This document shows positions 6,756 through 45,871 of a DNA stretch of 64,000 bases, piece after piece. The DNA lies in the NCBI GenBank assembly GCA_040219085.1, contig JAVJTC010000017.1:1-64000 (forward strand), read 5' to 3'. Source of the DNA: Acidimicrobiales bacterium (GTDB lineage Bacteria > Actinomycetota > Acidimicrobiia > Acidimicrobiales > JAVJTC01). The translations under genes and the position numbers were made by a program. How positions within the stretch are numbered: position 1 is the first letter of the stretch; each line of letters opens with the position of its first letter. A model generated the notes under the pieces. The model did not search any database. It worked only from the letters and a program-made list of their open reading frames with translations, and had not been told where the DNA came from.

Positions 6756-7766
6756 GTGGCAGCGGACGCCGAGATCCTCGAGATCGCCGGACACGACGTC
6801 CGCATCTCCAATCCCGACAAGGTCTTCTTCAGCCGACGCGGGGAGACGAAACTCGACCTCGTCCGCTTCTACCTCGACCTCGGCGATGCGCTGATGTCCG
6901 CCGTGGGTGGCCGCCCCACGATGCTGCAGCGGTTCCCCGACGGAGCGGGCGGCAAGTCCTTCTACCAGAAGCGCGTCCCCGCGAACCCTCCCGAGTGGAT
7001 GCAGACGACGACGGTCGCGACGGTGAACGGGACGACGTCGAACGCGCTGGTCCTCGCCGATCTCGCCCATGTGGCGTGGGCCGTGAACCTGGGGTGTCTC
7101 GGCTTCCACACCTGGCCCTACACAGTTGTCGACCCGGGCCACGCCGACGAACTGCGGATCGATCTCGACCCCCACGGCGGTGTCGCTTTCGGTGCGGTGC
7201 GGGACGCGGCGATGGAGGTCCGTGCGCTCCTCGACGAGGTCGGTGTCGTCGGGTGGCCGAAGACGACGGGGTCCAAGGGGATCCACGTGGTGATCCGGTT
7301 GCGGCCCCGCTGGACCTCCTACGAGGTCCGCTCGGCCGCTGTTGCCGTCGCCCGTGAACTCGAACGCCGACGCCCCGACCTGATCACCGCGGCGTGGTGG
7401 AAGGAGGAGCGCGGGAAGCGCGTGTTCGTCGACTTCAACCAGAACGCGCCGCACAAGACGGTCTTCGCGCCGTGGTCCGTGCGTGCGCGCGTCGGGGCAC
7501 AGGTGTCGACGCCGCTGCGCTGGGACGAGGTCCCCGACGTGGACGCGGAGGAGTTGACGCTGCCCGTGGTGGCGGCGCTGTACGCCGAGCGGGGCGATCC
7601 GTGGGCGGGGATCGGCGATGGCCCGCAGTCGCTCGAGCCGCTGCTGGAGATGCACGAACGGGACCGGGCCGACGGGTTGATGGACGCCCCGTGGCCTCCC
7701 CAGTACCCCAAGATGCCCGACGAGCCGCCCCGGGTTGCGCCGTCTCGGGCGAAGACAGAGGAGTAG
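6756..7766 (+). CDS. Stand-alone LigD-type DNA polymerase/primase (PolDom)
   Basis: A 336-residue archaeo-eukaryotic-primase-type polymerase, the domain that fills gaps with ribo- or deoxynucleotides in bacterial non-homologous end joining. The metal-binding pair is in ELRIDLDP, the nucleotide-binding motif is TGSKGIHVV, and a third acid is in VFVDFNQN. Length and motif order match the isolated PolDom, with no ligase or phosphoesterase domain attached. Neither Ku nor an ATP-dependent ligase gene is nearby, so its partners, if any, are elsewhere. The GTG start at 6756 is supported by the -10 box 6 nt upstream. The C-terminal 40 residues are proline-rich and probably disordered. Confidence 0.9.
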   Translation: MAADAEILEIAGHDVRISNPDKVFFSRRGETKLDLVRFYLDLGDALMSAVGGRPTMLQRFPDGAGGKSFYQKRVPANPPEWMQTTTVATVNGTTSNALVLADLAHVAWAVNLGCLGFHTWPYTVVDPGHADELRIDLDPHGGVAFGAVRDAAMEVRALLDEVGVVGWPKTTGSKGIHVVIRLRPRWTSYEVRSAAVAVARELERRRPDLITAAWWKEERGKRVFVDFNQNAPHKTVFAPWSVRARVGAQVSTPLRWDEVPDVDAEELTLPVVAALYAERGDPWAGIGDGPQSLEPLLEMHERDRADGLMDAPWPPQYPKMPDEPPRVAPSRAKTEE

Positions 7767-7920
7767 GGCGGCCGGTCCCTGTGACCGGTCCTGGAGGGCC
7801 CACAATCGCGCCCTGCCCGGCTCCGGCCTCCCCGATGCAGGGCCGACACCGACCCGGCTCGAGATAGTTCCGACTTCGGGTTGCGCAGTCGAACACCTGT
7901 TCGCTATAGTGATGCGACGT

Positions 7921-7946
7921 CGCCAACCCGGATACTTGGGTTGGCG
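7921..7946 (+). terminator. Hairpin with pyrimidine-rich tail
   Basis: CGCCAACCC (7921-7929) pairs with GGGTTGGCG (7938-7946) and is followed by TCATCTTCCCCTTT, the same tail type as the terminator at 29469. It could end the LigD-polymerase transcript, though it lies 150 bp past the stop, or belong to the HNH gene leader. Confidence 0.55.
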
Positions 7947-7956
7947 GTCATCTTCC

Positions 7957-8005
7957 CCTTTCGACCCCTCAGGGTCCTCGAACCGGCCGGTCGCGAGTCG
8001 AAAGG
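7957..8005 (+). promoter_or_regulatory. Structured 5' leader masking the HNH gene ribosome site
   Basis: CCTTTCGAC (7957-7965) pairs with GTCGAAAGG (7997-8005), whose end overlaps the AAAGGAG ribosome site at 8001-8007. An alternative inner hairpin is GACCC-CTCA-GGGTC (7963-7976), and a CCGGCCGG palindrome lies at 7983-7990. When the outer stem forms, ribosome access should be blocked. Inference from pairing only. Confidence 0.5.
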
Positions 8006-8014
8006 AGCAGAGCC

Positions 8015-9196
8015 GTGTGCGTCGAAACCCCCGGTGACGTCTCGGACCTGTCCGATGGGGCGCTCGCCGACGTCGTCGACAGCTTCGAAACCGCCCGCCG
8101 CCGTGCTCTTGCAGTCGAAATGGACGTTCTGGCGGTCCGCCTGGGACGAATGGGTTCGGCCGTGCGTGCCGGCGACCTCGCCTCAGAACTCGTCGAACGC
8201 CAAGCCGTGTCACAACGCGACGCCCGGCGCCGCGAGAACGTCGCCACCCACTGGCACCAGATGGCCGCCACCGCAGCTGCGTTGCGTCACGGCGAGATCT
8301 CCTTCGACCACACCGTCGCCATGGCCCGCGCCGCCCAAGAACACCCCGAGCGCTTTCGCGTCGACGAGACCGAGTTGTTGAACGAGGCGACCCGACGCAC
8401 CGCCGGAGGGTTCACGATCATCGTCGACCGGTGGGTCAAGGCCAACGACGCCGACGGCGGAGACGATCGTGCAGCCAGAGCCCGCCGGCGCGCCCGCGTG
8501 GACCGCTTCGACGCCGGACCGGACATGTTCGGCATGCGTATCGAGATGGCCGCCCTGGACGGTGCCCAGGTCTGGACCGCGATCCAGACCGAGGCCCGGC
8601 GCCTGTGGGCTGGCGACCACCCCCTCTTCGAAGAGACCGGCTTCGACCCGGGCGCCGACACGCCGTCCGCCGCCCGCTACCGCGCCGCCGCCACGTTCAA
8701 CCTCATCTGCGGTAACCCCGCCACACGCACCGGCACCGGCACACAGCTCATCGTCACCGCCACAATCGACGACATCACCAACCGCGCCGGCGGTGAACTC
8801 CTCGACGGGACACAGATCAGCGGAGGACAACTCGAGATGCTGGCGTGCACCTCGCCGATCGCCGGTCTCGTCTTCGACGTACGCGGCGAAGTCCTCTGGC
8901 ACGGCACCACCGTCAGACTCGCCACCCCCGCGCAACGTCGCGCCATCGCAGCCCGCGACAGACACTGCACCGTTGGCGCCTGCACCACGCCCGCCGACCA
9001 GTGCGAGATCCACCACCTCACCCCCTACGCCGCAGGCGGACCCACCGACATCGACAACATGGCCCTCACCTGCCGTCCCTGCCACCACGACAAGATCCAC
9101 ACCCGAGGCTGGACCCACACCGGCACGCCCGGCCACGACCTCACCTGGCACCCACCCGCCAACCACCCCAACCGGGCCCCACCCCACGCCGCCTGA
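8015..9196 (+). CDS. DUF222 / HNH endonuclease, 13E12 repeat family
   Basis: A 393-residue protein with an N-terminal DUF222 region (about residues 20-260, helical, Ala/Arg-rich) and a C-terminal HNH nuclease domain. In the latter, RHCTVGACTTPADQCEIHHL and CRPCHH give the Cys pairs and the HH of the active site. The family is multicopy in many actinobacteria (mycobacterial 13E12 repeats) and has the look of a selfish or mobile element, but its biological role is unproved. The GTG start at 8015 has AAAGGAG 7 nt upstream. It sits between unrelated genes with long non-coding flanks (248 bp before, 160 bp after), which suits an inserted unit. No terminal repeats or target-site duplication were found by eye. 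Confidence 0.9.
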   Translation: MCVETPGDVSDLSDGALADVVDSFETARRRALAVEMDVLAVRLGRMGSAVRAGDLASELVERQAVSQRDARRRENVATHWHQMAATAAALRHGEISFDHTVAMARAAQEHPERFRVDETELLNEATRRTAGGFTIIVDRWVKANDADGGDDRAARARRRARVDRFDAGPDMFGMRIEMAALDGAQVWTAIQTEARRLWAGDHPLFEETGFDPGADTPSAARYRAAATFNLICGNPATRTGTGTQLIVTATIDDITNRAGGELLDGTQISGGQLEMLACTSPIAGLVFDVRGEVLWHGTTVRLATPAQRRAIAARDRHCTVGACTTPADQCEIHHLTPYAAGGPTDIDNMALTCRPCHHDKIHTRGWTHTGTPGHDLTWHPPANHPNRAPPHAA

Positions 9197-31532: not shown

Positions 31533-33458
31533 TCAGTCGATGGCGAGTTCGGCGAGGCGGTTCTCGAGGCGCACCCCGGCGGCACGCACGTAGACGATCT
31601 GGTCGACGGCGCCGAGATCGTCGTTGTCCCAGATCGTGCGGTCCACGAAGTAGTGCCACCAGTCCGCCGCGCCGCCGGTGTCGTAGTCGGGGAACCACCA
31701 CCACCGGAGCTGGATGGGCTCGCCGACGTGACCCGACAGGTCAGCCGCGGCGGTGAGCTCGTTCGCCTTCGAAACGATGATCATGTCGGCTTCGGGGGCC
31801 GGCCCCGCTGCTCCGTCGAAGAGCCGGTACGGGACGTCGCGGAAATAGAACGCCCACGGCCAGGTGTCCGAGGAGTCCACGGCGAGGGTTGCCGGCTGCC
31901 CGAACTCGGCCCGCATCGCCCGGTCGAGTGCGTGGAAACGGGCAACGGTGGCAGTCACGTCCGGCGTCGCCTGGCCGGCCTGGGAGAGGAGCTCACGGGG
32001 GTCGTCGGCCCGGGTGAACGACGCGTGATAGCTGATGACGGCGGTGCCGATGAGCCCCGCAACGGCGAGGGCTCCGAGTGCAGCGAACCCGACGCGCCGG
32101 CGGTTCTCGACGATCTCGGCGACTCCCAGACCCGCCAGCAGGAGCATCGGGAGGACCGGGTGCAGGATCAGCCACGGCATCCGCTCACCCGCCCACGAGT
32201 GCAGGACGAAGCTGAAGATGGCGGCGAAGGCGAGGAAGCCTCCGACGAAGCTCCGCGTCCGCCAGGCGCGCCGGCCGCCGATGAGCGCGAGGCCGATGAA
32301 GAACCACTCGTAGATCGGTACGGCCCGGATGTAATAGGTCCACGGCTCGCTACCGCGGTTGTTGTCACGTTCGTCGATCCAGTACTCGACGCCGTCGGTG
32401 AAACCACCGACGAAATCACCCGGCCGCGTACCGAACACGGTGAAGATCACGCCGAAGGCGACGAGGAACACACCCAGGCCCAGCAGCCACGGCAACGGGC
32501 CGTTGCGCGTGACCGCACCCAGCACGGCGGTGTGGCGCGGATCGAAGCCCCGGTCGATCGACCTCCGAACTGCGTACGCGGCGAGGGCGGCGAGACCGGC
32601 CCCGTAGATCCCGAGGATGGCGAAGACCGACTGGTGGAGGTGTTCGATGATGAGGAGGGACACGAGGAGCCCCACGACGGCGATCGCCGGCACGGTCGCC
32701 TCTGCCGGCAGTGGACGCTCGTCGGGACGGTCGGCCCCGGAGAGGACCTCGGCGGCGACGGCGACCAGGACGAAGGCGCCGACGATGAAGATGATGAAGA
32801 AGACCGACTCCTTGACGCCCCACATGGCCGCGAGCCACAGGGCCCCGACCGAGGGGTGCCACCAGCGGGGCCGCCGGATGAATCCGAGCAGCGTGACGAA
32901 GAAGCCGAGCGTGAGGAAGGCGAAGAAGGCGTCCTCGCGGGCGAAGCGCGAGTAGTAGAGGAACGACGGACTCACGGCGAGGGCCACCGATGCCGCACCC
33001 GCGGCGACGTGGCCGATCTGGTGGCGCAGGAACCACGGCAGGAGGATGATGAGGGTCCCGGTGAGCGCGGAGATCAACCGGGCGGACGTCACCGAGTCGC
33101 CGAAGATCCAGTAGAAGCCACCGGTGATGTAGAACCGCAGCGGGCCGTGGTAGACGGGGTCGTAGCCGTCGAAGGTGCCGTTCAGCCACCGCCACGAGAA
33201 CCACGCGTCGAGGCTCTCGTCATGGTGCAGCGGCCGCTCGCCGAGATCGACGAGGCGCATGACGAGGCCCGCCACCGTGACGACCGCCGTGAACCATGCG
33301 AGCCGTGCGTCGGCGACGAGGCCACCGTGCCCCTCGCCGGACCCGGGAGGCTGATCGATCCCGTCCCCGGCGCCGCTGTCGGCCATGTCGATGCCGTCCG
33401 CCCCGTCGAGGTCCTCGTCAGGCGGCGGTGCGTCGTCGTCTTCGGTGGTGAGGCTCAC
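31533..33458 (-). CDS. Large polytopic GT-C-type protein, TIGR03663/Agl23-like
   Basis: A 641-residue membrane protein. After an acidic cytoplasmic N-terminus of about 45 residues come many hydrophobic helices, then a soluble C-terminal domain (about residues 490-641). PLHHDESLDAWFSWRW is in the first external loop, and its acidic/His residues match the catalytic loop of GT-C (PMT-like) transferases that use polyprenyl-phosphate sugars. YDPVYHGPLRFY and RFAREDAFFA fit the flippase-associated family TIGR03663. The GTG at 33458 overlaps the upstream stop by 4 nt (GTGA). A sugar transferred outside the membrane is the likely role; the acceptor is unknown. Confidence 0.8.
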   Translation of the reverse strand: MSLTTEDDDAPPPDEDLDGADGIDMADSGAGDGIDQPPGSGEGHGGLVADARLAWFTAVVTVAGLVMRLVDLGERPLHHDESLDAWFSWRWLNGTFDGYDPVYHGPLRFYITGGFYWIFGDSVTSARLISALTGTLIILLPWFLRHQIGHVAAGAASVALAVSPSFLYYSRFAREDAFFAFLTLGFFVTLLGFIRRPRWWHPSVGALWLAAMWGVKESVFFIIFIVGAFVLVAVAAEVLSGADRPDERPLPAEATVPAIAVVGLLVSLLIIEHLHQSVFAILGIYGAGLAALAAYAVRRSIDRGFDPRHTAVLGAVTRNGPLPWLLGLGVFLVAFGVIFTVFGTRPGDFVGGFTDGVEYWIDERDNNRGSEPWTYYIRAVPIYEWFFIGLALIGGRRAWRTRSFVGGFLAFAAIFSFVLHSWAGERMPWLILHPVLPMLLLAGLGVAEIVENRRRVGFAALGALAVAGLIGTAVISYHASFTRADDPRELLSQAGQATPDVTATVARFHALDRAMRAEFGQPATLAVDSSDTWPWAFYFRDVPYRLFDGAAGPAPEADMIIVSKANELTAAADLSGHVGEPIQLRWWWFPDYDTGGAADWWHYFVDRTIWDNDDLGAVDQIVYVRAAGVRLENRLAELAID

Positions 33459-35383
33459 GACCCGTCCTCCGCGGCGCTGACCGTCGCTACGGCCGAATCG
33501 GACGCAGCGTAGATGCGGTACCCCCCGAAGTCGTACGCGACCGGCGCGACGGCATCCCAGGCGCCCTGATCGGCACCGAAGTCCCCGCGCTCGCGGGGCC
33601 CGATGACGACGTAGTCCACCCCGTACTCCTCGATGAGGCCGTCGGCGCCCTCGCCCCGGGAGAGGATCGTGCCTGCGTCGCCGAAACGTTCTGCCCAGTC
33701 CTCGATTCCCAGGTCGAAAACCCATCCCGAGAAGCTCATCTGTACGGTCCTGCCCGACAGCGCGGGGATGGAATGGGTGTTGGAGGGCGCGACGACGAGC
33801 ACCGCCTCGGGGTCGGTGTTCTCACGGACCCACTCGGCCACGAGCACGTCCGAACCCGACATCAGCGGAAAGCGCCCGGTGGTGCGGTCGGCTGCGGCGA
33901 AGATGTCGAGCGCGCCGGCCGCGGTCATGGTCACGACCACCACGGCGACGACCGCCGTCGACGACGGGAAGAGGTCGGTGAGTCGGACCAGCGCCGCAGC
34001 CACGGGAAACGCCCCCAGAACGAGGAAGAACACGAAGTAATGGGTGTTGTTCCCCTCCCACGGGTGCGGCTTCACGAAGTTCGGCACGACGAACCACAAC
34101 CAGACCGGCACGAACGCGATCGCCTGGGTCTTCGTCAACGTGCCTCGCCACAACTGGCCGACGAGCACCAGTGGGAGGAACAGTCCGAGGTTCTTCAGCC
34201 AGAACCAGACCCAGTTGTCGTCGGAGACGTGCCCGACCCAGTCGTAGAACCAGTCAGCCGAACTCGACGGCGGGAGCAGAAAGGCCACCGCCGGTATCGA
34301 CAGGACCACCGCGGGCACGACGAACCACAGCCAGACCCGCCGACGGTCCATCAGCGCCCACAGGATCCCGAGACCCAGAGCCGTGCCGTAGCCGAACAGA
34401 TGGAACAGGGGCGCCGCGCCGACGATCACGCCCGCCGTCAGGAACGGGCCGCGCCCGCCGTGGCGGTATCCGGTCCACAAGATGGCGATGGCGATGAGGG
34501 CGATCGACAGCCCGAACAGTGTCGGGCGCTGGGGATACAGCACGCCGACGACGGGGTTCTCGATCCACCACCCCTCACCGGGGTCCCGCGTGTAGGTCCG
34601 GGGGAGGTCCCAGATGACCGACCATCCCCGGGCGCCCACGTCGTCGAGGAAGCGCGACCAGCCCCACCCACCGAAGAGCAGGAAGATCACCGTCGCCCAG
34701 AACGCGATGGCCCGCCGCTCGAAGATCCGCACGCCGACGAGGTACATGACCGCGGGGAAGGCGAACGCCAGGTAGCCACTGGAGATCTGCAGGCCCGCCG
34801 TCAGCGTCGAACCCGCCGAGACGATCATCGCGGCCAGGAAGTTGATGCCGAAGTGGTAGGCGAGGTCGTTGCCCGAGGCGATGGGCAACTCGAGGTCGAG
34901 CGACCCTCCATAGGCGAAGGACCCCGCGTAGGCGAGGTGCGCCTGCCAGTCCGAGAACGTTGCGAGGTGACCCGCGTCGATGCCGCCGTCGGCCGCCGTG
35001 GGGTAGGCGCCGTCGAGGATCCTCACCGTGACGATCCAGGCCGGCACCGCCAGCAAGAACAGGGGGGCGGGGCTGTCCGGGTGCATCGGCGAAAGCCGTG
35101 AACGCGCGACGAGGTCGGCGATGTCGGCACGCAGGACCCGTCGGGACCGCACGACGCCGACGAGGCCGACCGCGAGGGCCACGAGCACGGCGATGGTGAC
35201 CGTCGCCCCGGAGAAATCGAAGAGTCGTGTCACGACGATCCCGCTGAGGACCACCGCCATGGCACCCACCACGGCGCCGTACGCAACCCGCTCCTCGAAG
35301 CTCAGTCGCAGCGGCGTCAGAGCGCTGAGGCCGACACCTGTGACGACGCACGCGCACAACAGGGCCGCCACACCGGGTGTCAC
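33455..35383 (-). CDS. Large polytopic membrane protein, GT-C-like
   Basis: A 642-residue protein with about 13 hydrophobic helices and a soluble C-terminal domain of about 130 residues ending in GGYRIYAASDS. An external loop after helix 3 carries GGIDAGHLATFSDWQ and SGNDLAYHFGINF, where acidic residues could be catalytic as in GT-C enzymes. The last part (WVRENTDPEAVLVVA, YGVDYVVIGP) is common to bacterial YfhO/dolichyl-mannosyltransferase-like proteins. The start is GTG at 35383, 7 nt after the Rpf-like stop; the next gene overlaps its end. Co-expression with an Rpf protein and a second GT-C protein points to cell-envelope glycan assembly (inference). Confidence 0.7.
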   Translation of the reverse strand: MTPGVAALLCACVVTGVGLSALTPLRLSFEERVAYGAVVGAMAVVLSGIVVTRLFDFSGATVTIAVLVALAVGLVGVVRSRRVLRADIADLVARSRLSPMHPDSPAPLFLLAVPAWIVTVRILDGAYPTAADGGIDAGHLATFSDWQAHLAYAGSFAYGGSLDLELPIASGNDLAYHFGINFLAAMIVSAGSTLTAGLQISSGYLAFAFPAVMYLVGVRIFERRAIAFWATVIFLLFGGWGWSRFLDDVGARGWSVIWDLPRTYTRDPGEGWWIENPVVGVLYPQRPTLFGLSIALIAIAILWTGYRHGGRGPFLTAGVIVGAAPLFHLFGYGTALGLGILWALMDRRRVWLWFVVPAVVLSIPAVAFLLPPSSSADWFYDWVGHVSDDNWVWFWLKNLGLFLPLVLVGQLWRGTLTKTQAIAFVPVWLWFVVPNFVKPHPWEGNNTHYFVFFLVLGAFPVAAALVRLTDLFPSSTAVVAVVVVTMTAAGALDIFAAADRTTGRFPLMSGSDVLVAEWVRENTDPEAVLVVAPSNTHSIPALSGRTVQMSFSGWVFDLGIEDWAERFGDAGTILSRGEGADGLIEEYGVDYVVIGPRERGDFGADQGAWDAVAPVAYDFGGYRIYAASDSAVATVSAAEDGS

Positions 35384-38301: not shown

Positions 38302-40722
38302 ATGGCAGGCCAGCAGAAGCTCGGATTCGATCCCGACTTCGCCGCGGAGATCGTCGACGTGCCCGTCGCCGAGGAGATGTCGGAGTCATTCCTCGCGTAC
38401 TCGCTGTCGGTCATCACCGCCCGGGCCATCCCCGACGTACGCGACGGTCTCAAGCCGGTGCAGCGTCGGATCCTGTACGCGATGCAGAACATGGGCATCC
38501 GCCCCGACACCCCCCACCGCAAGTGCGCCCGGGTCGTCGGCGAGACGATGGGCCGCTACCACCCCCACGGTGACTCGGCCATCTACGACACCCTCGTGCG
38601 GATGGGCCAGAGCTTCTCGCGTGGGATCACCCTCATCGACCCCCAGGGCAACTTCGGCAGCCTCGACGACCCGCCCGCCGCCGCCCGCTACACCGAGTGC
38701 CGCCTGACCGACGCGGCGATGCAGATGCTCGCCGAGCTGGGTGAGGACACCGTCGAGTTCCGCACCACCTACGACGGCGAGGGCACCGAGCCCGTCTACC
38801 TTCCCGCCCGGCTCCCCAACCTGCTCGTCAACGGCGGTAGCGGCATCGCCGTGGGCATGGCGACCAACATGGCGCCCCACAACCTCGCCGAGGTCTACGC
38901 GGCGGTGGAGCTCGTCATGACGAAGCGGCGACCGAAGCCCACGATCGACGAACTGCTCGCCGTCATTCCCGGCCCGGACTTCCCCTCCGGTGGGATCATC
39001 GTGGACGAGGGGATCCGTGAGGCATACGAGTCCGGCCGCGGCTCGATGCGCGTGCGGGCCCGCGCGGAGATCGAACAGCTCACGTCGAAGCGCCAGGGCA
39101 TCATCGTCACCGAACTCCCCTACATGGTCGGCCCCGAGAAGGTGGTCGCCAAGGTCAGCGAACTCATCGCCGAACAGCGCGTCCCGGGACTCGACGACGT
39201 CAAGAACCTCTCGGACCGTCACCAGGGGACGCGGATCCAGATCGAGTGCAAGCCCGGGGTCAACCCCCACGTGGTCCTCCAGGAGCTCTACAGACTCACA
39301 CCACTGGAGGAGACGTTCGCCATCAACGCGGTGGCACTCGTCGACGGTGTCCCGACCACGCTCGGCATGTACGAGTTGTGCCACCACTACGTGGAGCACC
39401 GCCTCGACGTCATCGTGCGCCGGACACGGTGGCGCCTCGAGCGGGACCGGGCACGCCTTCACATCGTCGAGGGTCTGCTCATCGCACTGGACGCGATCGA
39501 CCTCGTCGTGGCGATCATCCGCGGCTCCGACACCGTCTCGGAGGCCCGCGCCGAGCTGATGGAGCGCCTGACACTCACGCAGATCCAGACCGACGCCATC
39601 CTCGAGATGCAGCTGCGACGCCTCGTCGCGCTCGAACGCCAGAAGCTCGTGGAGGAACGGGACGAACTGCTCGAGCGGATCGCGGATTATGAGGCACTCC
39701 TGGCCTCCGAGACCCGTCAGCGCAAGCTCGTGCTCGCGGAGCTGGCCGAGCTCGTGGACCAGTTCGGCCACGAGCGGCGCAGCACGATCATCTCCCCCGA
39801 CGACATCGAGGTCTACGAACCGTCGTCCATCATCGACACGTCCAGCGTCTCCGACGAACCGGCGGTCGTGACGCTCGCCACCTCGGGGGCCGTCGGACGG
39901 ACCCCCACGGAGGGCGCCAAGCGCGCCACACCGGGCCGTCACGACGTGATCGTCTCCTCGGCGCTGACATCCACCGCCGACCGCGTGTACGCCGTGACGT
40001 CCGACGCACGGGTGCTGGGGGCCTTCGTTCACGAGATCGGTGAGGTCTCGGGCCGCAGTCGCGGTGGGCAGGCGTCCCAGCTGTTCGGCACGAGCCGGGG
40101 CGAGACGGTTCTGGCCGTGCTCGCCGCCAGTTCGGAGCCGGTCGTCCTCATCACGGCCAACGGCGTCGCCAAGCGCATCACACCCGCAGAGCTCGCCGGC
40201 ACCCGCACCGGCGACACCGTCATGAACCTCAGGGAGGGCGACCGCCTCGTTGCCGCGTTCGGCTGTCCCGACGGAGCCGACGTCGTGATGGTCGCCTCCG
40301 ATGCTCAGGTCCTACGCACCGCCTCGGCGGACATCTCCGTGCAGGGGCGGGGCGCAGCCGGGGTCGCAGGCATGAAGCTGCGCAGCGGCGCCCGGCTGGT
40401 GGGCGCCGCCTGCGTCCTCGGCGACGGGGCCGTCACGATCGCCACCGACCGCGGCGCGGCGAAGGCCACCCCGCTCGAGGAGTTGGAGACGAAGGGACGC
40501 AACGGCCAGGGCGTGCGGCTCACCAAACTCGACGACGAAGAGCAGGTGACCGTCGTACACGTGGGCCCCCTCGACGACCTCGTCGCGACGATGGGCACCG
40601 ACGGGGACCCCACCAGACCCGACCCGACCCCCGTCCCGTTCCCGCTCGACGCGACGAAGCGTGACCTGGTGGCCACGACCACGGACCGCCCGATCCTCGA
40701 GCTCGGCCCGGCACGGTGGTGA
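38302..40722 (+). CDS. Type IIA topoisomerase subunit A (ParC-like, GyrA-related)
   Basis: An 806-residue DNA-cleavage subunit. The catalytic Tyr is in [10 protein letters not shown], the quinolone region [17 protein letters not shown] keeps the Ser and Asp of sensitive enzymes, and [14 protein letters not shown] is conserved. A coiled-coil tower lies around residues 400-490. The C-terminal beta-pinwheel lacks the GyrA box (QRRGGRG) that wraps DNA for supercoiling: the first blade reads [12 protein letters not shown] at that place. A decatenase (topoisomerase IV-like) role is thus more likely than gyrase. The ATG at 38302 follows GAGAGGA. It overlaps the subunit B gene, an A-before-B order opposite to the usual gyrB-gyrA. 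Confidence 0.9.
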
Positions 40723-42773
40723 CCATGGGGCCGAACGGTTCGGGTAAGGGCTACGACGCAGACTCCATCCAGACCCTGGAGGGTCTCGACGCCGTCCGCA
40801 AGCGTCCGGGCATGTACATCGGCGGGACGGGCTCGAACGGGCTCATGCACCTCGTGTGGGAGCTGATCGACAACGCCGTCGACGAGGCGTCGTCGGGCCA
40901 CGCCGACCGCTGTGATGTCACGTTCCACCGCGACGGCTCGATCGAGGTCGCCGACAACGGCCGCGGGATCCCCATCGACCGCCACACCAAGCGCAAGGTG
41001 TCGGCGCTCGAGGTGGTCTTCACCGACCTGCACGCGGGCGGCAAGTTCGGCGGCGGCGCCTACGGCGCATCGGGCGGGCTGCACGGCGTCGGCGCGTCGG
41101 TCGTCAACGCCCTCTCCGCCAAGCTCGTCGCCGAGGTCGACCGGGACGGCAACACCTGGCGCATCGAGTTCCACGAACGCATCGCCGGACGAGTGGAGGG
41201 CGGGCACTTCACCGCGGGACACGATCTCGAGAAGGTCAGGCGGATCGGCAAGACCAAGTCCGGGACACGGGTCCGCTTCTGGCCCGACACCGAGATCTTC
41301 GACCCCGACGCCACCATCGACTTCACCGAAGTGTGTGAACGGGTGGCCCGGGCGTGCTGCCTCGTCCCCGGCCTGAAGGTGACGGTCACCGACAAGCGGA
41401 CCGGAACCGACAACGAGCCGTTCGAGTTCGTCTCACGCGGCGGACTCGCTGACCTCGTGGACGAGATGTCGGTCGGCGAGCAGGTGACGAAAGTGATCGC
41501 GATCAACGGGATCGACACCTTCACCGAGAAGGTGCCCGTCGAGGGGAAGATGACCGAGGTCACCCGCGAGTGCACCGTCGACATCGCCCTTCGCTGGGTG
41601 AAGGGCTACGAGACCTCCATCCAGTCCTTCGTCAACACGGTGCCCACCCCCGACGGGGGCACCCACCTGGCGGGGTTCGAGCGGGCCCTGACCCGCGCGG
41701 TCAACGACACGCTGCTGCCCGGCACCCGCAAGCTCGCCAAGCTCGCCAAGGCGGGCAACGACCGCGCCGGCAAGGACGACGTCCAGGAGGGCCTCGTCGC
41801 CGCCGTGAAGGTCACGTTCCCCGAACCGCAGTTCCGGGGCCAGACCAAGCGTGAGCTCGGGACGCCGGCGCTGCAGAGCATCGTCTACGAGATCGCCAAG
41901 TCCGGCCTCGTGGACTGGTTCGACCGGGACGGGCCCAAATCACACGTCAACTCGGTGCGCGACAAGATCGCAACCGCGATCGTCAACCGCATCGCCTCCA
42001 AGCAGATGCTCGAGACACGCCGTAAGGCGGCCAACCTCGGCTCGAGCGGCATGCCCGACAAGCTGGCGGACTGCCGGGTGCACGGCGCCGACGCGGAGCT
42101 GATCATCGTCGAGGGCGACTCCGCCGCGGGTCCGGCCAAGGCGGGCCGCAACTCCGAGAACGTCGCCATCCTCCCCCTGCGCGGCAAGGTCGTGAACGCC
42201 GCGAAGGCGTCACTCAAGCAGGTGATCGAGAACGCCGAAGCGAAGGCGCTGTTCACCGCCGTCGGTGCCGGATCAGGCAAGGACTTCGACATCGGCGCGG
42301 CCCGCTACGGGCGCATCGTGATCCTCTGCGACGCCGACGTGGACGGCAGCCACATCCGCTGCCTGCTGCTCACGCTGTTCTACACGCACATGAGGCCGAT
42401 GCTCGAAGAAGGGCGCGTCTACGCGGCCCAGCCACCGCTGTACACGACCAAGGTCGCCGGGCAGACCCACCGGGCGATGAGCGACGCCGAGAAGGACCAC
42501 ATCACCGCGCAACTCACCAAGGGCCGCCGCAAGGCGGAGTCCATCCACTGGCAGCGCTTCAAGGGTCTCGGCGAGATGAACGTCGACGAACTCGCCCATT
42601 GCGCGCTGGACCCGGGAACCCGCGTCCTGCGCCGCCTGACGCTCGATGACGCCCGGGCGGCGAAGGACGCCGCCACGATGTTCGACGTCCTGATGGGCAC
42701 CGACGTCGGCCGACGCCGGGACTTCCTCCTCGAGAACTCGGGCTTCATCGACCAGGACATGCTCGACGTCTGA
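40719..42773 (+). CDS. Type IIA topoisomerase subunit B (ParE/GyrB-like)
   Basis: A 684-residue ATPase subunit. The GHKL ATP site is LIDNAVDEASSG and DNGRGIP with GLHGVGASVVNALS; QTKRELGTP is in the transducer; the TOPRIM Mg sites are VEGDSAAGPAK and CDADVDGSHI; the C-terminal QRFKGLGEMN and a closing LDV are family landmarks. Length is that of the short GyrB/ParE form without the E. coli insertion. The start GTG at 40719 overlaps the subunit A stop (GTGA); ATG at 40725 is the alternative. A hairpin at 42798 follows the stop. It works as A2B2 with the upstream gene. Confidence 0.92.
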   Translation: MTMGPNGSGKGYDADSIQTLEGLDAVRKRPGMYIGGTGSNGLMHLVWELIDNAVDEASSGHADRCDVTFHRDGSIEVADNGRGIPIDRHTKRKVSALEVVFTDLHAGGKFGGGAYGASGGLHGVGASVVNALSAKLVAEVDRDGNTWRIEFHERIAGRVEGGHFTAGHDLEKVRRIGKTKSGTRVRFWPDTEIFDPDATIDFTEVCERVARACCLVPGLKVTVTDKRTGTDNEPFEFVSRGGLADLVDEMSVGEQVTKVIAINGIDTFTEKVPVEGKMTEVTRECTVDIALRWVKGYETSIQSFVNTVPTPDGGTHLAGFERALTRAVNDTLLPGTRKLAKLAKAGNDRAGKDDVQEGLVAAVKVTFPEPQFRGQTKRELGTPALQSIVYEIAKSGLVDWFDRDGPKSHVNSVRDKIATAIVNRIASKQMLETRRKAANLGSSGMPDKLADCRVHGADAELIIVEGDSAAGPAKAGRNSENVAILPLRGKVVNAAKASLKQVIENAEAKALFTAVGAGSGKDFDIGAARYGRIVILCDADVDGSHIRCLLLTLFYTHMRPMLEEGRVYAAQPPLYTTKVAGQTHRAMSDAEKDHITAQLTKGRRKAESIHWQRFKGLGEMNVDELAHCALDPGTRVLRRLTLDDARAAKDAATMFDVLMGTDVGRRRDFLLENSGFIDQDMLDV

Positions 42774-42869: not shown

Positions 42870-44477
42870 CTAGTCGACTGCGGAAACGTGCTCGTAGAAG
42901 AACGTGTCGACGGATCCGACGTACTGAACCAGGAACCGGGGCGTATCCCGGTAGTGGGTCCGACTCAGCTCGACGATTCCAGAGGTGGCATCGACATCAC
43001 CAGAGTCGAAGTGCTCGCGAACGACCGACCCCCGCACGTGGTGATCGGTCACCGCTCGGGCGATCTCTGTCATGGGGGTCACTGCCCCCAACACGAAAAC
43101 CGCGATCAGCAGAAGCCGTACGGGAGACCGACGCGGTGAACAGAACAGTGCGCGAACACCACAGACAGCAAGTACGAACAGTCCGGGCCCCGACGCCCTC
43201 ATGGCGAGATCACTCCATTGGCCATATCGGAGCAACGGCAGCGCCGTGAGCATCAGTATCGAGGCGAGAAGAAGCCGACGCATGAGCGGTTCGGATCGCA
43301 AAGAGCCGCCCCTGAAGATGAGCGCGCCGAGAACACCGAACTCCAGAACGACGAAGAGCAGGTACGACGCCACTACCCGCGGCATCCCGAAGTCGAAGAT
43401 GGGATTCGAGACGATGAACCCCATTTCGATGCCTCCACCAACGTCGAAGGGGAGATCGGCGGTCGCTGCGATGAAGAACGCCAGGACCGGCAGACACGCA
43501 AACCCCGCGAGGAGGGCCGGACCACTGAGCAACTGTTCGCGCCAGGACCCGCTGCGAGCCTTTCGCACCAGTGCCGCCCCGACAATGGGCAGCAGGCCGA
43601 CGACCACAAAGGGCGAGAAGATGGCGACCATCGGCACGATCGCAACCACCCATCGGGTGTACCCCGATCGAGCGGCGTAGAGGACCAAGCCTGTGGCGAC
43701 CCAGCCCGCCAGGGCATGCTGTGGCCCCCACATCACACTCGTCACGTTCGCCGGGTAGAGAGCCACACCGGCCCACCAGTCGAGCTGCCCCGATGGCAGC
43801 ACGACGTCCGGCATCGACAGCAGCGGGCCGAGCAACGCTCGACCAACCGCGTCGAGCCCGGAGAACACCATGAAGAACATCGCGATGAACGCCGGTTTCG
43901 CAACCGGCCCGACGTGGGTCACGAACCAGCTGATCGCCAGCGCGATCCCGATCGTGGTCCAGGCCAGCATCGCTGCGTTCGCGGCCTCCCAGCCGAGCGC
44001 CTTTCCGATGGCAGCCGCCGGGAGGTAGTGGCCCACGTAGTAGACGAGCCCCACCTCGGAACCACCGACTTCGTAGGTCACGGGCCACGACTCCACCAGG
44101 AGGTCCCGTAGGACGGCGTTGTGCTTCAGCCAGTCCCAGGCCTGAGGAAGGTACCCCCCTGCACCCGTTATCAGAGCGAGGCCGATTGCGATGGGCAGTA
44201 TCGATGCCATCGCCGGCCGGCTCGTGCCCGCGTCCAGGCGAGGGACACGGGCGATGGATCCGACGAGAGCAGTGAGGCAACCAACGGTGACAACGGCAAC
44301 TAGAGGCCTCGACCAGCCGACAGCGAAGATGATGTTCGGCACGGCGAGGTAGACGAGCGACGAGACGACTAGCCACCGGGGAGCGGACGGCGGACTGGAG
44401 GTCGTCGCCGAAGGTTCCCCGGTTCTGATACTCGTCGCTTCAGGGCCGCCCGCGACGGCGGCTGGTGACCGGGTCAC
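42870..44477 (-). CDS. Polytopic membrane protein of unknown function, GT-C-like layout
   Basis: A 535-residue protein with about 12 hydrophobic helices and a short soluble C-terminus. An external loop after the third helix carries YEVGGSEVGLVYYVGHYLP, and a later loop has LPSGQLDWWAGVALYPANVT; acidic and aromatic residues there resemble GT-C glycosyltransferases, but no diagnostic motif was found. The GTG at 44477 starts 4 nt after the stop of the inositol-oxygenase-like gene, so the two are one transcript. Base composition is lower than the surroundings: a hand count of 43201-43320 gives 71 G/C in 120, against 81 in 120 at 40801-40920. This suggests horizontal acquisition. Confidence 0.65.
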   Translation of the reverse strand: MTRSPAAVAGGPEATSIRTGEPSATTSSPPSAPRWLVVSSLVYLAVPNIIFAVGWSRPLVAVVTVGCLTALVGSIARVPRLDAGTSRPAMASILPIAIGLALITGAGGYLPQAWDWLKHNAVLRDLLVESWPVTYEVGGSEVGLVYYVGHYLPAAAIGKALGWEAANAAMLAWTTIGIALAISWFVTHVGPVAKPAFIAMFFMVFSGLDAVGRALLGPLLSMPDVVLPSGQLDWWAGVALYPANVTSVMWGPQHALAGWVATGLVLYAARSGYTRWVVAIVPMVAIFSPFVVVGLLPIVGAALVRKARSGSWREQLLSGPALLAGFACLPVLAFFIAATADLPFDVGGGIEMGFIVSNPIFDFGMPRVVASYLLFVVLEFGVLGALIFRGGSLRSEPLMRRLLLASILMLTALPLLRYGQWSDLAMRASGPGLFVLAVCGVRALFCSPRRSPVRLLLIAVFVLGAVTPMTEIARAVTDHHVRGSVVREHFDSGDVDATSGIVELSRTHYRDTPRFLVQYVGSVDTFFYEHVSAVD

Positions 44478-44481
44478 GCAC

Positions 44482-45315
44482 TCAGATCGTGACCGACTGA
44501 GGCAGCCGGTCACGCAGGAGCGGCTTCCACCGCTCGACTGCTGCGGGATCGAACGAGTGGGTGCTCTTCGTGCCGAAGTCGTAGCGACGGAACGGCACCA
44601 GCCACCGCTCGAGGTACTCGAGGTCCCGCTCGTCCATGTAGGGCCGTGAGGGTCCGATCTCGATGGAGTGGTACCGCATCAGCCAGGCCACGTGATCGGG
44701 AACGAGATCACCCATGCGCTCCCAGATGAACTCGTCGTGGTTCCACTGGAACACGACGTTGTCCAGACCGATCCCGGGAGGGTGCTCCCCGATCGGACGG
44801 TTCGTACAGACCACGTTCACCGGATCCTCGTCCGTCAACAACAGAACCTTGCCGAGGTCGTGGGTCATCGCTGCGAGGTACATGTCCTCGTCGTCGACGC
44901 CGTCGGCCTCCATGCCCACGAGGATCTGCTGGAGGTGCACGTGCTGGCTCGAGTTCCCGAGCGCGTTGTCAGCGGGGTCGATGCACCGGGCCAACTCGTC
45001 GACGAGTTCGGTGGGATCCACGGTGCCGAACACCGGCGTCGCGTACTTCTCCCTCAGCGCGGCGACGTCGGCGGCGGTCTGTTCCCAGTGACGGGCGTAG
45101 ATCGCACGGACCTCACCGTCGAACGCGACCCGGTGGTCGCGGACCCGTGTGGGAACGGCAACGGTCTCCAACCCGTCGGGAAGCGACGCCGCAGCGGCGC
45201 GGTCCGCGCCGAGCGCCACTCCGGCGGCGAGGCCGGCGGCACCGGTGGCGGCTCCGATGATCAGAGCCCGTCGATCCACCACCGGGGTCTGGCGACCATC
45301 GACGAACTCTGACAT
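44482..45315 (-). CDS. Inositol oxygenase (MIOX)-like di-iron HD protein with Tat leader
   Basis: A 277-residue homologue of myo-inositol oxygenase, an HD-domain di-iron enzyme that cleaves inositol to glucuronate. All six metal ligands are in place: His127 (HLQQ), His152-Asp153 (THDLGK), His193 (WNHDEF), His216 (RYHSI) and Asp246 (RYDFGTK); LDNVVFQWNHDEF and TK at 249-250 align with the animal enzyme. Unlike cytosolic MIOX, it begins with a twin-arginine region, VVDRRALIIGAATGAAG, and an Ala-rich cleavage zone near residue 43, so export of the folded, metal-loaded enzyme is predicted. It is co-transcribed with a polytopic membrane protein. Substrate could be inositol or another polyol. Confidence 0.85.
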   Translation of the reverse strand: MSEFVDGRQTPVVDRRALIIGAATGAAGLAAGVALGADRAAAASLPDGLETVAVPTRVRDHRVAFDGEVRAIYARHWEQTAADVAALREKYATPVFGTVDPTELVDELARCIDPADNALGNSSQHVHLQQILVGMEADGVDDEDMYLAAMTHDLGKVLLLTDEDPVNVVCTNRPIGEHPPGIGLDNVVFQWNHDEFIWERMGDLVPDHVAWLMRYHSIEIGPSRPYMDERDLEYLERWLVPFRRYDFGTKSTHSFDPAAVERWKPLLRDRLPQSVTI

Positions 45316-45370: not shown

Positions 45371-45871
45371 TCAGAGCCCCGGTCTGAACGCCATGAGGTA
45401 GAGCATCACGATGAGGCCGAGGTGGGTGACGCCCGACGCCATGCCGATGCGCGACGAGATCGCCGCGATCCGGCCCTCGATTGCGTCGCGGTCACCGGTG
45501 GCGAGTTCACGGGTGAGGCGGGCGACGGCGAGCTGGGCCGGAGCCACGACGAACCAGACGAGCGCGACCAGCACGATCCACAGGGGGCCGGCGATGGCGA
45601 GCCAGGTCTGGGAGAAGTCGTACAGGTCATCGGAGAAACCGACGAGTGCGCCACCGAAGACACCCGCCAGCAACAGCGCCGGGGCCACCACCGCCTTCAT
45701 CGTCGCACCGACCATGGCGAGGATGTCGGCCCGGCTCTGATCCCGGGCCTTGCGCATCAAGACGACGACGACGGGGAGCGCGAACATCGCCCCGGCGCCG
45801 ATGATCACGCTGAGGTGGTGGAGCACGAGCACGATCTTGTAGCCCGTGTCGGTTGTGGCGGCCAGGATCAT
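45371..45871 (-). CDS. Small integral membrane protein (DUF2269-like)
   Basis: A 166-residue protein with four hydrophobic helices; the first carries KIVLVLHHLSVIIGAGAM, with paired His as in DUF2269-type predicted membrane proteins and some haem-binding small membrane proteins. A polar loop of about 30 residues (LTRELATGDRDAIEGR) precedes the last helix. The ATG at 45871 follows GAGGAG at about 5 nt, which rules out the longer in-frame start at 45991. It is 55 bp upstream of the inositol-oxygenase-like gene in the same direction, possibly the same operon. Function unknown. Confidence 0.75.
   Translation of the reverse strand: MILAATTDTGYKIVLVLHHLSVIIGAGAMFALPVVVVLMRKARDQSRADILAMVGATMKAVVAPALLLAGVFGGALVGFSDDLYDFSQTWLAIAGPLWIVLVALVWFVVAPAQLAVARLTRELATGDRDAIEGRIAAISSRIGMASGVTHLGLIVMLYLMAFRPGL

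Follow-up and report, generated by a model that had tools for sequence, protein, structure and literature searches.

The window, a stretch of 64,000 nucleotides from an Acidimicrobiales bacterium, encodes on its minus strand a protein of 277 amino acids that resembles myo-inositol oxygenase (MIOX). The gene is flanked on the same strand by genes for two integral membrane proteins. The following features of the gene and its neighbours are referred to below.

44482..45315, minus strand: coding sequence of the MIOX-like protein, a putative HD-domain di-iron oxygenase, 277 aa (open reading frame, Pfam, alignment, fold match)
45184..45315, minus strand: predicted N-terminal leader of the Tat type, residues 1-44, with likely cleavage near AAAA-S (hydrophobicity, simulation, model disorder)
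45259..45276, minus strand: twin-arginine motif D-R-R-A-L-I, residues 14-19 (translation of the open reading frame)
44935..44937, minus strand: iron ligand His127, mouse His98 (alignment)
44857..44862, minus strand: HD pair His152-Asp153, mouse His123-Asp124 (alignment)
44800..44808, minus strand: Cys170-Thr-Asn172 in place of MIOX Gly141-Asp142-Thr, next to which a segment of about 29 residues is missing (alignment)
44737..44739, minus strand: iron ligand His193, mouse His194 (alignment)
44668..44670, minus strand: iron ligand His216, mouse His220 (alignment)
44578..44580, minus strand: iron ligand Asp246, mouse Asp253 (alignment)
42870..44477, minus strand: polytopic membrane protein with about 12-15 hydrophobic segments, starting at GTG 44477 or GTG 44513
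45371..45871, minus strand: integral membrane protein with DUF2269, encoded 55 nt upstream of the MIOX-like gene

The Pfam MIOX model matches the protein with 62.8 bits (cut-off 25), and a single-sequence search for solved relatives returned mouse and human MIOX only. All six di-iron ligands of MIOX were found in the translation, as H127, H152, D153, H193, H216 and D246, exactly where the earlier sequence-only reading had placed them. A residue-level alignment pairs them one to one with mouse MIOX His98, His123, Asp124, His194, His220 and Asp253 (alignment positions are the construct numbering minus a 4-residue tag). An AlphaFold model built from six sequences has pLDDT values mostly above 90 at residues 61-277 and below 50 at residues 1-53, which are unstructured in the model. 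Superposition on mouse MIOX (2huo), proposed as a check in the sequence-only reading, bore the relationship out, giving a Z of 25.1 and an rmsd of 2.6 Å over 215 aligned residues. The other fold matches are 2ibn, also a MIOX (Z 23.6), PhnZ (10.9) and TmpB (9.9), and all remaining matches are below 8. The fold match and the one-to-one alignment of the ligands imply that the six residues would cluster in space. A match to the terpene cyclase 7vta (E 0.012) was judged to be due to chance.

The N-terminal leader and the start codon

The leader of the MIOX-like protein has the sequence DRRALIIGAATGAAGLAAGVALGADRAAAAS, and residues 14-45 read DRRALIIGAATGAAGLAAGVALGADRAAAASL. It consists of the RR pair, an uncharged hydrophobic stretch, an Arg and the AAAA sequence, which resembles an AxA site. 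Tat leaders, unlike Sec leaders, typically carry an Arg in the c-region, as here. The single hydrophobic segment of the protein spans residues 17-35 (KD 1.93). Leaders of equal quality begin 336 of 82,124 open frames (0.4%) of simulated DNA with the same dinucleotide make-up. No other protein of the 64-kb window that is otherwise soluble begins with such a leader; the further matches are internal to other open reading frames, most of which are membrane-protein-like. The genome also encodes TatC (214.4 bits). The sequence bears out the twin-arginine leader described in the sequence-only reading. Among the curated Tat leader models none scored above threshold, TIGR02811 being the only one to match (14.3 bits, E 0.04, below its cut-off); this shortfall weighs little, because such short models are insensitive.

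The combination of an RR leader with a predicted folded metal enzyme is shared with Tat-exported metal enzymes in general, the Tat pathway being the one taken by proteins that acquire their metal before export. To our knowledge, no HD-domain oxygenase is among the known Tat substrates, and none was found as such in the literature searched. The part of the literature that was covered likewise yielded no exported or glycan-linked relative of MIOX.

The same enzyme might instead be cytosolic, translation beginning at GTG codon 33 (MALGADRAAAAS...), a possible leaderless start, in which case the leader would be untranslated GC-rich DNA. Such a start would fit with the lack of a clear Shine-Dalgarno sequence at the annotated ATG, with a GC3 that is lower in the leader (0.76) than in the body of the gene (0.87), and with the absence of the leader from all seven relatives described below, which makes it known in the window protein alone. 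On the other hand, RR, a charge-free hydrophobic stretch and AxA come together in just that small fraction of simulated open frames, and the leader keeps a coding-like pattern with GC3 higher than GC2. Furthermore, a protein begun at codon 33 would be without the basic amphipathic segment that forms the N-terminus of the relatives, where the hydrophobic moment is 0.46-1.0 compared with 0.24 for the window protein. Cytosolic translation from codon 33 is unlikely in the light of these observations, and export of the protein by the Tat pathway is predicted as the probable outcome. The sequence-only reading would have given way to homologues that lack the RR region and a true start further downstream; the homologues do lack that region, and there is no sign of a true downstream start in the window gene. 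The survey it had proposed, of whether RR leaders define a clade sharing the membrane-protein neighbour, gave a negative answer: neither RR nor the same membrane neighbour occurs in any of the seven relatives.

A sister clade of MIOX

The seven relatives, at about 40-50% identity, were recovered with patterns derived from a first alignment and by genome searches. They come from a Cyanothece MAG (L007), a Myxococcota MAG (L008), two alphaproteobacteria (L009 and L019) and three actinobacteria (L010, L011 and L025); L002, L010 and L015 are one gene reached by different searches, and so are L003, L011 and L016. A frameshift, either real or an assembly artefact, splits the MIOX-like gene of the actinobacterial MAG L011 (7800-8579). 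In a tree calculated without L011, a partial sequence, seven clade members separate at 100/100 from four bacterial MIOX, and the branches between the clade and bacterial MIOX (Gemmatirosa, cyanobacteria and alphaproteobacteria) are long.

All seven relatives share the six ligands with the window protein (8/8), and the equivalents of MIOX Asp85, Lys127 and Lys257 are invariant in the same eight proteins. The equivalent of Ser221 is kept in seven of the eight. Gly141-Asp142-Thr of MIOX has become Cys-x-Asn in 7/8, and the segment of about 29 residues that follows it in MIOX is absent from the clade. In the MIOX crystal structure of Brown and colleagues from 2006, Asp85, Lys127, Lys257, Ser221 and Gly141-Asp142 reportedly have a role in inositol binding. 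The retention of the first four makes a polyhydroxy substrate, similarly bound, plausible, and the replacement of Gly141-Asp142 together with the loss of the long segment makes myo-inositol doubtful as the substrate. Thus, the pocket of the clade, as read from the alignment, looks suited to a polyhydroxy compound and not to myo-inositol in the manner of MIOX. On these sequence grounds the protein belongs to a sister clade of MIOX that has had no name so far and whose members are putative HD-domain di-iron oxygenases.

The protein could still be supposed to be an ordinary MIOX that converts myo-inositol to glucuronate for catabolism and is merely exported. It shares with MIOX (PF05153; mouse 2huo) the overall fold, the six ligands and the Asp85, Lys127 and Lys257 equivalents, and mouse MIOX is its best solved match. 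However, its identity to MIOX is low (22-29%), it carries an N-terminal leader, it belongs to a separate clade with a remodelled Gly141-Asp142 region, the neighbours of its relatives are of the glycan type, and inositol catabolism genes adjoin no relative seen. An exported ordinary MIOX is very unlikely. The sequence-only reading had treated the protein as an inositol-oxygenase homologue and suggested polyol oxidation. That it is MIOX itself is not supported, given its membership in the sister clade; polyol (inositol) oxidation is no natural guess for a clade without the Gly141-Asp142 pair and the long segment, and the genes next to the relatives indicate glycan assembly instead.

HD-domain oxygenases have the ligand pattern H..HD..H..H..D and lack the extra His of di-nuclear phosphodiesterases (PMC8177086), and both the MIOX-like protein and its clade conform to this. 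PhnZ and TmpB, which are mixed-valent di-iron phosphonate oxygenases, have the same pattern, and an 'SQ..H' stretch of the MIOX-like protein resembles NQLEHSLQ of PhnZ. They differ in that their folds match more weakly than that of MIOX and in that no phosphonate genes are found as neighbours here; the Phn-HD model TIGR03276 matches only weakly (11.7 bits, cut-off 214.6). The majority of HD proteins are hydrolases (PMC8177086), but a metal-dependent phosphohydrolase with oxygenase-like ligands is most improbable given this ligand pattern and the three known oxygenases as the closest folds. The protein is likely to have the oxygenase chemistry of the HD-domain di-iron enzymes.

The clade is rare, being found in 3 of the 395 genomes of the class, in 2 of the 248 genomes of the order (the window's own included) and in 2 of 289 genomes of the alphaproteobacterial class. 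A clade-level score was reached in 1 of 292 genomes of the cyanobacterial phylum, where two far weaker matches were set aside; the one that was read (L017) is a true MIOX. The Pfam MIOX model, applied to 396 genomes of the phylum, recovered this gene alone, so that this model easily overlooks the clade. Sequence scans of genome contigs, viral contigs and phages revealed no close relatives of the window protein, and a scan of plasmids gave one relative, a true MIOX. A phage origin, also considered, was not supported by the searches. The 1-kb bins at 43,001 and 44,001 have G+C contents of 0.648 and 0.652, the two lowest of 64 bins (mean 0.694, sd 0.018). The lower-G+C patch noticed in the sequence-only reading is real, though the dip of about 2.3-2.5 sd is mild, and together with the sporadic distribution it fits the acquired origin that had been suggested.

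Gene neighbourhoods and a possible role at the cell surface

In six of the seven relatives the MIOX-like gene adjoins a glycan-type or flavoprotein gene (a descriptive count), and a flavoprotein gene follows it directly in four. No inositol catabolism genes were seen in these neighbourhoods. In L009, the order is a core-2/I-branching glycosyltransferase, a sulfotransferase, the MIOX-like gene and UDP-galactopyranose mutase (355.9 bits), and in L019/L026 a gene of the core-2/I-branching glycosyltransferase family is directly upstream. L007 has a Wzt-type ABC ATPase and a methyltransferase upstream and a flavoprotein of the mutase/PRK07208 group downstream. In L025/L027 the MIOX-like gene is followed by a flavoprotein of the L007 type, 45% identical to it across phyla, and then by a GT2 gene. 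The flavoprotein that follows the MIOX-like gene in L011 is of the PRK07208 type and 24% identical to that of L027. A nucleotide-sugar transferase lies 11 nt downstream of the MIOX-like gene in L008/L028. In L010, the downstream gene encodes a 667-aa polytopic protein with no family match, and the remaining neighbours are non-glycan. As this polytopic protein is dissimilar to that of the window, the idea of a membrane neighbour common to the clade was dropped.

The MIOX-like gene and the mutase-superfamily flavoprotein gene (7884-8654 and 8694-9209 in L007; 7606-8892 in L027) form a two-gene unit, whose order and sequence (45%) are kept between the cyanobacterium and the actinobacterium. The window differs in its surroundings: no flavoprotein or sugar-nucleotide gene adjoins its MIOX-like gene, and the partner flavoprotein has no match in the genome of the window organism. 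Instead, the MIOX-like gene is joined to the gene of the polytopic membrane protein, with a gap of 4 nt if the latter starts at GTG 44477 or an overlap of 32 nt if it starts at GTG 44513, a tight linkage that bears out the coupling stated in the sequence-only reading. The DUF2269 gene is a possible further member of this unit.

The polytopic protein has no match in Pfam or the PDB. It is 27-30% identical to proteins encoded on Sphingobium and Methylobacterium plasmids. The Sphingobium relative adjoins GT2 and methyltransferase genes, and the Methylobacterium relative directly follows genes that read as an epimerase and a GT2 of the polyprenyl-phosphate type. D100-W101 and D110 are invariant and belong to a loop that follows the early helices, an arrangement also found in GT-C enzymes. 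The protein has no profile similarity to a PMT_2 protein, its single-sequence model (pLDDT 42.7) is unusable for fold comparison, and viral contigs contained no further sequences for the alignment. Judging from the neighbourhood of its relatives alone, it is probably a glycosyltransferase that uses a lipid-linked sugar. A functional partnership between it and the MIOX-like protein is an evenly balanced proposition.

Elsewhere in the window, the region 31536-35383 (minus strand), about 9 kb from the MIOX-like gene, encodes two large membrane proteins, one of which is a PMT_2 type glycosyltransferase. Two overlapping genes at 38302-42773 (plus strand) resemble by their appearance the A and B subunits of type II topoisomerases, the A-type gene being first.

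The presence of the leader on this copy alone and the surface-sugar neighbours of the relatives suggest a surface sugar, and not free inositol, as a possible target of oxidation by the enzyme. A glycan or sugar as the substrate seems slightly favoured. In HD-domain oxygenases, the mixed-valent di-iron centre is regenerated without an external reducing system (PMC8177086). Work outside the cytoplasm is chemically possible for such enzymes, because they need no external reductant. Our best reading, held tentatively, is that of a glycan-linked HD-domain di-iron oxygenase, exported in this member by the Tat pathway and acting on a cell-surface sugar.

The enzyme would then help to build or tailor glycans of the cell surface. 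It would hold a mixed-valent Fe(II)/Fe(III) pair, one iron binding a sugar or cyclitol through a vicinal diol and the other binding O2, and a C-C bond might be cleaved by four-electron oxidation without an outside reductant. In the window organism, the folded and iron-loaded enzyme would be sent out by Tat to the membrane's outer face and there act on a sugar that the putatively co-transcribed polytopic protein handles. In the other members of the clade, the basic amphipathic N-terminus probably serves to keep the enzyme at the inner face. Possibly, the sugar ring of a lipid-linked or surface glycan is opened or shortened outside the cytoplasm with O2 only, and likewise at the inner face by the relatives, but we consider this specific chemistry somewhat unlikely.

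If true, this would be a new way of tailoring bacterial surface sugars. Three HD-domain oxygenases, MIOX, PhnZ and TmpB, are listed as characterised in a 2020 review (PMC8177086). Small and well delimited by sequence, a fourth clade whose substrate wall differs and which is tied to surface-glycan genes would bring new chemistry to polysaccharide assembly, and a Tat-exported member would show that self-regenerating iron chemistry can operate outside the cytoplasm.

In the Cyanothece MAG, the methyltransferase (6916-7815) and the MIOX-like protein (about 7884-8654) begin with near-identical basic amphipathic sequences, MSLAKKIVKKTLKKMGYEIYP and MKLAKKAVKSLLQKAGYQIQP. This likeness suggests a common mode of membrane contact, and the segment may be a tag that polysaccharide enzymes share for contact with the membrane.
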